Positions 47,491-49,447 of a stretch of DNA of 64,000 nucleotides are shown here, one piece after another. The DNA lies in assembly GCA_947595925.1 (NCBI GenBank), contig CANQEV010000001.1, forward strand, positions 62,001 to 126,000, written 5' to 3'. A program made the position numbers and the translations under genes. A model generated the notes under the pieces. It did no database searches and had not been told where the DNA came from. It saw only the letters and a list, made by a program, of their open reading frames with translations. Position 1 is the stretch's first letter. Each line of letters opens with the position of its first letter. The stretch comes from an uncultured Acetatifactor sp. (lineage in GTDB: Bacteria > Bacillota > Clostridia > Lachnospirales > Lachnospiraceae).

Positions 47491-48912
47491 ATGCATATTG
47501 AAAAGAAATTGTTTTCCGTTCTTCTGGTGTTTTTGCTTTTGGCGGGAGCGATCCTGGGGAGCCGTTTGGAGATCCGCCAGCCGGCGGAGGAAGGGCAGGG
47601 GGAATCCTGGTCCAGCATCAAGGAGACAATTTATGTCTGGTATTCGGACGAGGCGCTTTCCGGCTATATCGGCACGGCGGCCGTGAACTTCAGCGAGGCG
47701 GAGGGCGTCAGGGTGATCCCCGTGCTGCAGTCCGCCGACCGCTTTCTGGAGGAAATCAACGAGGCAACCCTGGATCCGGAGGAACAGATGCCGGATGCTT
47801 ATGTGATCAACAACGACGAACTGGAAAAGGCTTATCTCGCGGGACTTGCCACGCCCATCCAGGATCCGGAGGGGATTGTTTCGGAGAGAGAGCTTCCGGG
47901 AACGGCCCTGTCTGCGGTCTCTTATAATGGAAACACGGCGGCATACCCCTTTTTCTTTGACACCAGCGTCCTGGTGTATAATAAGGATTATCTGCAGATG
48001 TGGTTAGAACAGCAGGCGCAGAGGGCGGCCCAGGGAGAAGAAGATCTGCCCGAGGGAGAGGAGCCTGCTCCGGAGGACGGCGGCACCGGTGTCTCTGAGG
48101 ATGGCAGCATCGTGTCGGAGGATGTCCCGCTGGAGAGCATTATCCAGCCGGACGGACTGCCCCTTACGGTAGATGGCATCCTGCATTTTGCGGATACTTT
48201 TGATGCGCCGGAGAATGTGGACGGCGTCATGAAGTGGGATGTGTCCGACATCTTTTACAATTACTGGATCGTAGGGGATTATCTGACTGTAGGCGGCGAC
48301 AGCGGGGATGATTACACCAACATCGACATTTACAATGACGAAGTCATTTCCTGCCTGAAGGTTTATCAGGCGCTGAATCAGTTCTTTTATATTGAGGCGG
48401 ATAAGGTAAACTATGAGTCCGCAGTGCAGGACTTTGTGGATGGAAAGATCGTGTTCACCATCGGATCCGCAGATATCCTTCAGAGATTGAACGCAGCGAA
48501 GGAGGACGGCAGCTTTGCCTATGAGTATGGGATCGTGACGCTTCCCCAGGTCAGCACGCAGCTGGGCAGCAGGCCCCTTTCCGTGACGAACGCCGTGGCA
48601 GTCAACGGCTACTCCCAGCACAAGGAGCTTGCCAATCGTTTTGCGGAATACCTGACCCGGGATTTCGCGGGGGATCTCTACAGCCGCGCCGGAAAGATCT
48701 CCGTCTATGACTCCGCATATCCGGAGGACGAGCTGCTGCAGATGTTCCACAAACAATACGAAGAGAGCGTTTCCCTGCCGAAGATGATGGAGATCGGAAA
48801 CCTCTGGCTCAGCCTGGAAGCGCTGTTTGCAAAAGTGTGGAACGGCGAGGAGGTCATGCCCCTGGTACAGGAGCTGGAAAACCAGATATCCACCCAGATT
48901 ATCATAGAGTGA
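47491..48912 (+). CDS. Orphan extracellular solute-binding protein
   Basis: 473 residues: an N-terminal hydrophobic segment (residues ~7-23) followed by a periplasmic-binding-type domain of the sugar-ABC family: IYVWYSDEALSGYIGTAAVNFSEAEGVRV, YPFFFDTSVLVYNKDYL, and SVTNAVAVNGYSQHKELANRFAEYL near the C-terminus. No lipobox Cys is present, so it would be anchored by the uncleaved helix or released. An acidic low-complexity insert (about residues 178-205) is unusual. It starts two bases after argD, and no ABC permease or ATPase lies nearby. Co-transcription with argD is likely; a functional link to arginine is not shown. Confidence 0.8.
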   Translation: MHIEKKLFSVLLVFLLLAGAILGSRLEIRQPAEEGQGESWSSIKETIYVWYSDEALSGYIGTAAVNFSEAEGVRVIPVLQSADRFLEEINEATLDPEEQMPDAYVINNDELEKAYLAGLATPIQDPEGIVSERELPGTALSAVSYNGNTAAYPFFFDTSVLVYNKDYLQMWLEQQAQRAAQGEEDLPEGEEPAPEDGGTGVSEDGSIVSEDVPLESIIQPDGLPLTVDGILHFADTFDAPENVDGVMKWDVSDIFYNYWIVGDYLTVGGDSGDDYTNIDIYNDEVISCLKVYQALNQFFYIEADKVNYESAVQDFVDGKIVFTIGSADILQRLNAAKEDGSFAYEYGIVTLPQVSTQLGSRPLSVTNAVAVNGYSQHKELANRFAEYLTRDFAGDLYSRAGKISVYDSAYPEDELLQMFHKQYEESVSLPKMMEIGNLWLSLEALFAKVWNGEEVMPLVQELENQISTQIIIE

Positions 48913-48968
48913 AGAATCTACGGCATGAAATTGTTAGTTTTTGTTAATTGAATTATCGTCGTATAAAG

Positions 48969-49030
48969 AAAACCGGCCATGACATACTATCCAAAAAGAA
49001 AGGGAGGTATTCGTCATGGTCGGTTTTTTT
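48969..49030 (+). promoter_or_regulatory. Terminator-like hairpin containing the start codon of the ydcZ-type gene
   Basis: AAAACCGGCCATGAC (48969-48983) pairs with GTCATGGTCGGTTTT (49013-49027), 15 pairs with one G-T, followed by more T (seven in a row). The loop holds the RBS GGGAGGT (49002-49008) and the ATG (49016-49018) is in the stem. This can act as a terminator for transcripts from upstream and at the same time hide the start site. Confidence 0.7.
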
Positions 49031-49447
49031 ATCGCGCTCCTCTCCGGGGCGCTTATGAGCATACAGGGTGTGTTTAATTCACAGGTGACAAAGGCGTCCG
49101 GGATCTGGTCCGCCAGCTCCTTTGTGCAGCTTTCCGCGTTTATCGTATGTATCGGGGCCTGGCTTGCCACAGACCGGAGCAATCTTTTGAAGGTCTTCAG
49201 CGTACAGCCCAAGTATATGCTGCTGGGAGGCGTCATCGGCGCGTTCATCACCTACACGGTGATCAAGAGCATGGATCTCCTCGGCCCCGCCAGGGCCGTA
49301 ATGCTGATCGTCACCGCGCAGTTGATCGTCGCCTACGGCATTGAACTGTTCGGCCTGTTCCAGGTGGAAAAGCAGCCCTGGGAGTGGAGAAAGGCCATCG
49401 GCATGGCGGTGGTGATCGGCGGGATCATTCTGTTTAAGTGGAAGTGA
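49016..49447 (+). CDS. YdcZ/DUF606-type small DMT transporter
   Basis: 143 residues with five transmembrane helices: MVGFFIALLSGALMSIQGVFNSQVTKASG, then WSASSFVQLSAFIVCIGAW, and KAIGMAVVIGGIILFKWK at the end. It matches the DUF606 (YdcZ) family, half-size members of the drug/metabolite transporter superfamily that dimerise. Substrate unknown. Its start codon lies in the stem of a terminator-like hairpin, with the RBS in the loop; a TATAAA sits just upstream of the hairpin at 48962. Confidence 0.85.
   Translation: MVGFFIALLSGALMSIQGVFNSQVTKASGIWSASSFVQLSAFIVCIGAWLATDRSNLLKVFSVQPKYMLLGGVIGAFITYTVIKSMDLLGPARAVMLIVTAQLIVAYGIELFGLFQVEKQPWEWRKAIGMAVVIGGIILFKWK

Follow-up and report, generated by a model that had tools for sequence, protein, structure and literature searches.

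Inverted-repeat hairpins block read-through expression of the IS10 and IS50 transposases, and the hairpins of phage T4 late genes behave alike. As predicted for the ydcZ locus analysed here, transcripts entering from outside have both arms and a hidden start, and those begun at the inner promoter are one arm short. In those systems, however, the repeat is the end of the element or a phage leader, whereas at ydcZ it would be a terminator of the chromosome that encloses a sporulation promoter.

A counterpart in a spore former is the sigG (spoIIIG) gene of Bacillus subtilis, where Masuda et al. (1988; cited in PMC5942855, Fig 1D) proposed that a 20+ pair hairpin keeps read-through RNA from being translated. 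This hairpin has been described for one gene and as translational, and cannot form in RNA made from the gene's own sigma-F/G promoter. The ydcZ locus resembles sigG, as portrayed there, in that a forespore gene (ydcZ being presumed to be one) lies behind a co-directional operon and a hairpin predicted to block read-through. It differs in its selected U-tract, in a start codon that can lie inside the hairpin and in a -10-like element placed in the left arm; moreover, the ydcZ-type design recurs, both at ydcZ in numerous genera and in front of further spore genes. By analogy, the ydcZ element is predicted to work like the B. subtilis sigG hairpin, with termination and a promoter in the arm added.

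The promoter-like element at ydcZ resembles the clostridial sigma-F/sigma-G promoters known from C. difficile (PMC3789822; PMC7438776) in a -35/-10 layout as at sigG and in a G upstream of the -10; in C. difficile, a G directly before the -10 is typical of promoters read by sigma-F (PMC3789822), and it is present at most ydcZ promoters of the genus. Unlike in C. difficile, the -10 at ydcZ doubles as stem sequence. With intrinsic (Rho-independent) terminators the element shares a G+C-containing stem and a U-tract, but the U-tract falls in codons 4-5 of the next gene or just before its ATG, and the left arm would be promoter DNA. In the literature searched, the coverage of which is incomplete, we found hairpin/promoter nesting nowhere described as a design that recurs, and no report that links YdcZ (DUF606) to sporulation; the C. 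difficile forespore gene table consulted names no YdcZ-family gene.

The window (the whole stretch of 64,000 nucleotides analysed) comes from an Acetatifactor-like Lachnospiraceae MAG, the nearest ydcZ locus to which is 99% identical in protein. The features of the locus, with the evidence for each, are as follows.

47491..48912, + strand: gene for an extracellular solute-binding protein (SBP), the putative source of read-through (Pfam SBP_bac_8/SBP_bac_1)
48961..48965, + strand: -35-like element GTATA (G-N-A-T invariant in a 44-row left-arm-anchored alignment; in register with the -10-like element)
48966..48988 (core 48969-48983), + strand: left arm of the hairpin, overlapping the putative promoter (folding, covariation)
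48983..48989, + strand: -10-like element CATACTA, 17 nt after GTATA (sigG-trained matrix, window score 17.2)
48995..48997, + strand: loop position at which transcription from the own promoter is predicted to begin (from the -10 distance, about six bases after the -10)
49002..49007, + strand: Shine-Dalgarno sequence GGGAGG, in the loop/upper stem (sequence, folding)
49006..49030, + strand: right arm of the hairpin, with the start codon and first ydcZ codons (folding, covariation)
49016..49447, + strand: ydcZ-type DMT transporter gene, 143 aa (PF04657, E 1.9e-31; start codon and frame kept in genus relatives)
49024..49030, + strand: U-tract, coding for Phe codons 4-5 of ydcZ (codon bias)

The ydcZ product matches the DMT_YdcZ profile (PF04657) with 109.6 bits, against a curated cut-off of 24. 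Its gene follows an argJ-argB-argD-SBP run, the last member of which ends at 48912. Between the two lies the left side of a hairpin with a gapless stem of 15 pairs, one of them G-U, formed by AAAACCGGCCATGAC (48969-48983) and GTCATGGTCGGTTTT (49013-49027); folding lengthens it to 48966-48983 / 49013-49030, followed after a 2-nt bulge by 48984-48988 / 49006-49010. The minimum free energy of 48950-49060 is -46.2 kcal/mol, compared with a mean of -24.8 for shuffled sequences (z -6.2; 0 of 200 shuffles). The right arm, the loop and the run of seven T into which the stem leads are located where the sequence-only reading had placed them, with the ATG (49016-49018) inside the arm and the Shine-Dalgarno sequence in the apical part. 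A stable stem immediately followed by a U-tract is what characterizes an intrinsic terminator, and folding and codon bias both point to it here; because the loop is longer than it permits, a simple terminator scan of the window did not pick the hairpin up. The outer A-U pairs consume part of the T run, leaving few unpaired T beyond the stem. Termination at the U-tract is a prediction, as is a translational block of ydcZ.

The hairpin is maintained by selection on pairing. Of 138 genomes of the genus, 130 have ydcZ, as a rule in a single copy, and most of the 80 loci compared have the same hairpin arrangement; a few members (L011, L034, L046 and L059) lack the hairpin. Covariation was assessed for 11 stem pairs in an alignment of 44 genus relatives. 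Standard pairs make up 95.2% of the cells as against 85.3 +/- 0.9% after shuffling, and pairing falls to 46.6% or less once the two arms are offset by one to three bases. Cells changed on both sides number 48, compared with 15.1 in shuffles (reached in 0 of 500), and changes on both sides occur in seven of the 11 pairs. Pair 19-90, for example, is AU in 28 sequences, GC in 15 and GU in one, and pair 16-93 is AU in 33, UA in seven and GU in four, with none broken in either; even the silent third positions of ydcZ codons 2 and 3 track the left arm with zero broken pairs. Conservation and covariation of the arms, the lack of which the sequence-only reading had named as its refutation, are therefore borne out. 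The stem contains 54 G.U cells but only three A.C cells, so the selected molecule is the sense-strand RNA of ydcZ. Folding and covariation together indicate that the ribosome-binding site and start region are paired in RNA arriving from upstream.

The U-tract is under selection as well, exerted via codon choice. At codons 4-5 of ydcZ in the genus loci, 119 of 121 Phe codons are TTT, as against 391 of 613 in the rest of the gene, and 34 of 38 Leu codons are TTA or TTG, as against 253 of 1252, a bias with p about 1e-18.

The left arm contains a second conserved feature. At ydcZ loci a G-N-A-T stands at a near-fixed distance from a second block, GGNNANNCT, inside the left arm, and the loop varies; the resulting two-part element, GNATA-N17/18-[C/T]ANNCT, reads GTATA-N17-CATACTA in the window. 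Most sigG upstream regions examined in the same genus carry GNATA-N17/18-CATACTA, and that of the window's own genome carries GTATA-N18-CATACTA. A weight matrix trained on 14 sigG promoters only, with no ydcZ sequence included, gives the window element its score of 17.2 (99% of random windows are below 10.3) and, in most genus relatives, places the element at the left arm too. Scores at ydcZ average 10.0 within the genus, compared with 1.8 for shuffles and -0.6 for random windows, and the median over 106 genera is 11.3 (shuffles 2.5). The -10 is looser at ydcZ than at sigG, with variants such as TACACT, TATCCT and CAAGCT. A GNATA -35 and a CATACTA-like -10 spaced by 17-18 nt, the combination expected of a sigma-F/sigma-G promoter, are thus both present in the window.

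The same comparison bears on how the GTATA stretch is to be understood. The sequence-only reading had proposed that TATAAA at 48962 serves as the promoter of a transcript escaping the hairpin. As a sigma-A -10, however, it would place the start near 48974, low in the left arm, and most of that arm would be retained, and no TTGACA-like -35 is conserved upstream of TATAAA/GNATAA in the genus alignment. GTATA makes a more convincing -35, belonging to a sporulation promoter of the sigma-F/G type, than a -10. The idea of a switch between read-through and own-promoter expression therefore stands in outline, with covarying arms and a selected U-run, but with a different promoter. As the predicted start lies in the loop, the own transcript would lack the left arm and escape the hairpin. 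Two other forespore-type markers gave a different picture: the gpr upstream regions have no ydcZ-like promoter near the start, and the SASP upstream regions have an inverted repeat yet no clear GNATA-CATACTA pair. The SASP repeat, AGATAAGTG...CACTTATCTT followed by GAANATAGA, is found in much of the genus (L111-L140), and many genus members (L146-L175) have a conserved block, AAACATACTATTGTAGTTTAG...TTTGTCAATACATA, ahead of gpr.

Folding of the two alternative transcripts agrees with the claim that the start is closed in read-through RNA, and predicts it to be open in RNA from the own promoter. In the window the Shine-Dalgarno sequence and AUG are predicted unpaired at 0.20 in the former and 0.61 in the latter, and the start region is largely unstructured when 48995-49060 is folded. 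The genus medians are 0.25 and 0.45 (43% with the promoter region shuffled); the shift in Shine-Dalgarno accessibility is moderate in many species, exceeding 0.2 in 36 of 74. At sigG of the genus itself, a search for a read-through hairpin gave only a weak tendency (median 0.53 versus 0.69, n=13).

Upstream sequence could be read for 106 genera, and with hairpin and promoter scan thresholds that we set ourselves, a nested promoter/hairpin was recognized in 47 of them. The right arm covers the ATG in 31 genera; in the other 16 it covers the Shine-Dalgarno sequence, with the U-run just before the ATG. Dinucleotide shuffles yield about 2% for the ATG type and none for the SD type. In all 47 genera the left arm terminates before the predicted start, and from the promoter position the own transcript is predicted to lack it, as in the window. 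Between distant genera the arms have little sequence in common and keep their complementarity, so it is the design that is kept, not a sequence. By the scan criteria 49 of the 106 genera have no terminator-like hairpin, and some of these may carry bulged versions (e.g. L213, L211).

The presence of the hairpin depends on what lies upstream. An adjacent same-strand gene precedes ydcZ in 87 of the 106 genera. The nested hairpin occurs in 33 of the 55 genera in which that gene encodes ArgD or SBP, in 12 of the 32 with another same-strand gene, and in two of the 19 without an adjacent same-strand gene; the first and last classes differ with a Fisher p of 1.7e-4, genera being counted raw and kinship ignored. 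No genus in which the nearest gene is on the opposite strand has it, and the promoter-like element is retained in several of the 19. A hairpin that blocks read-through is expected to be missing where nothing reads through, and the action on incoming transcripts surmised in the sequence-only reading is in line with this distribution.

The gene itself is distributed like a sporulation gene. In a wider survey of 250 Lachnospiraceae genomes from 249 genera, 143 of the 167 that have sigG also have a ydcZ orthologue, whereas not one of the 83 without sigG does (p 9e-45, kinship ignored). ArgJ, often encoded near ydcZ, occurs in 225 of the 250, so the pattern is not one of general gene loss. This makes ydcZ a candidate for an unrecognised sporulation gene; as to its role in spores, our guess is that it carries a substrate out of or into the forespore across its membrane. 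The window's own genome carries sigF/sigG-type sigma genes, SASP and gpr. A Pfam search for SpoIIR (PF09551) returned no match in any of the 41 genus genomes, and this protein may be divergent, lost or replaced in the genus. We used sigG, SASP and gpr as markers in its place, and infer sporulation in the genus from genes other than SpoIIR.

The same architecture appears at other genes. A covariance model of the element finds one site per genome, at ydcZ, in 35 of 41 genomes, and an extra match in one relative (L308:1260-1365), where an enolase gene follows and the promoter and hairpin are nested in the same way. A search pattern for the SD-type design, written from sequence alone (CCTCC, ATACT within the left arm, GGAGGTTTT), has 43 matches in 397 genomes, compared with eight for a reversed control, and an open frame begins at once in 25 of 30 loci examined. 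The genes that follow include yabP (eight), spoIVA (three), enolase (two), spoVAA, ydcZ and lactate dehydrogenase (one each) and others, among them three for small proteins weakly like the coat protein CotF; part of the open reading frames were scanned, and other copies of yabP and spoIVA were recognized from their similarity in sequence. The nested design is found at spoIVA in L419, L438 and L447, at spoVAA in L423, and at yabP in L421, L433, L434, L437, L439, L440, L442 and L444. The hairpins of these spore genes have a promoter-like sequence in the left arm and the Shine-Dalgarno sequence and U-run in the right arm. An earlier pattern also matched rubrerythrin and a SipL/SPOCS-domain gene (L403), the latter likewise beginning right behind a hairpin of this make-up. 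YabP and SpoIVA are encoded by mother-cell (sigma-E) genes in B. subtilis; the design would therefore not be limited to one sigma factor.

Enolase genes of three genomes (L308, L424, L443) sit behind a nested promoter/hairpin, and the sequences suggest a sporulation-specific enolase in some Lachnospiraceae. At the L-lactate dehydrogenase gene of L422, GTATA-N17-GATACTA is nested in a hairpin that takes in the Shine-Dalgarno sequence. A broader pattern, ACCTCC-N20-50-GGAGGTTTTT, was set aside; many of its matches resemble insertion-sequence ends or ordinary terminators, and it is useful only with an ATG directly after. Three genomes (G160, G315, G365) each contain many near-identical copies of ACCTCC...GCGGTTGGCGAACC...GGAGGTTTTT, which are probably insertion-sequence ends or another repeat family.

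Could the hairpin be a plain terminator of the argD/SBP operon, packed against ydcZ for space, with the hidden start and the promoter overlap as by-products? The selected U-tract fits this, 77 of 78 genus loci have an SBP homologue before ydcZ in the same orientation, and no other terminator-like sequence is present between the SBP stop codon and ydcZ. Some genera (e.g. L197, L202), however, have a separate ordinary terminator, so that packing is not needed; in two geometries, the right arm repeatedly coincides with the Shine-Dalgarno sequence or ATG, just as the left arm does with the promoter; and the design returns at yabP, spoIVA, spoVAA and enolase. We regard this explanation as unlikely. 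Far less probable is a leader attenuator or riboswitch, in which a housekeeping promoter with TATAAA as its -10 would transcribe the whole hairpin, to be opened by a ligand, a protein or the ribosome. TATAAA at 48962 and GNATAA in relatives do resemble a -10, and the hairpin spans both Shine-Dalgarno sequence and AUG; yet upstream of GNATAA no -35 is conserved, that place is occupied by an element shared with sigG at near-fixed spacing, the loop is highly variable in sequence and length, and the hairpin is mostly absent without a same-strand gene before ydcZ. No relevant Rfam match was obtained, a relaxed threshold giving only chance matches below gathering. That the inverted repeat acts as DNA, as an operator for a regulator, is scarcely credible: it is conserved and adjoins the promoter, and the covariance model weakly matches the opposite strand too, but between genera the arm sequences change completely while complementarity stays, arm spacing varies, the U-tract is one-sided, and G.U cells far outnumber A.C mismatches.

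We thus favour the reading that the 70-bp element at ydcZ is a read-through insulator with a nested sporulation promoter, which we hold to be probable, with the caveat that selection on the promoter and selection on pairing overlap in the same bases. Polymerase coming from the upstream argD/SBP operon would produce RNA with both arms, in which the hairpin and U-tract would act as the terminator of that operon; in RNA passing the terminator, the Shine-Dalgarno sequence and AUG of ydcZ would be sequestered. During sporulation, sigma-F (or sigma-G) polymerase would use GTATA-N17-CATACTA, with the -10 in left-arm DNA, and would start in the loop. The resulting RNA, devoid of the left arm, would be neither terminated nor closed at its start, and ydcZ would be made, presumably in the forespore only.

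We also lean, with less assurance, towards a wider proposal: that Lachnospiraceae share one design for sporulation genes situated amid growth-phase operons, in which the left arm of a terminator hairpin is a sigma-F/G or sigma-E promoter and the right arm holds the Shine-Dalgarno sequence or start, each gene being insulated from read-through and fully open from its own promoter. Here ydcZ would be one member, and its own part in sporulation would have gone unrecognised. Uniting promoter, terminator and start-codon lock, the element may offer a compact part for use in laboratory strains, and its sequence signature may mark developmental genes and their promoters in uncultured gut bacteria. The YdcZ transporter, absent from 83 of 83 sigG-less genomes sampled, would be marked as linked to sporulation. 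If the proposal is true, spore genes lying behind housekeeping genes would be kept strictly off during growth by one 70-bp element and no repressor.
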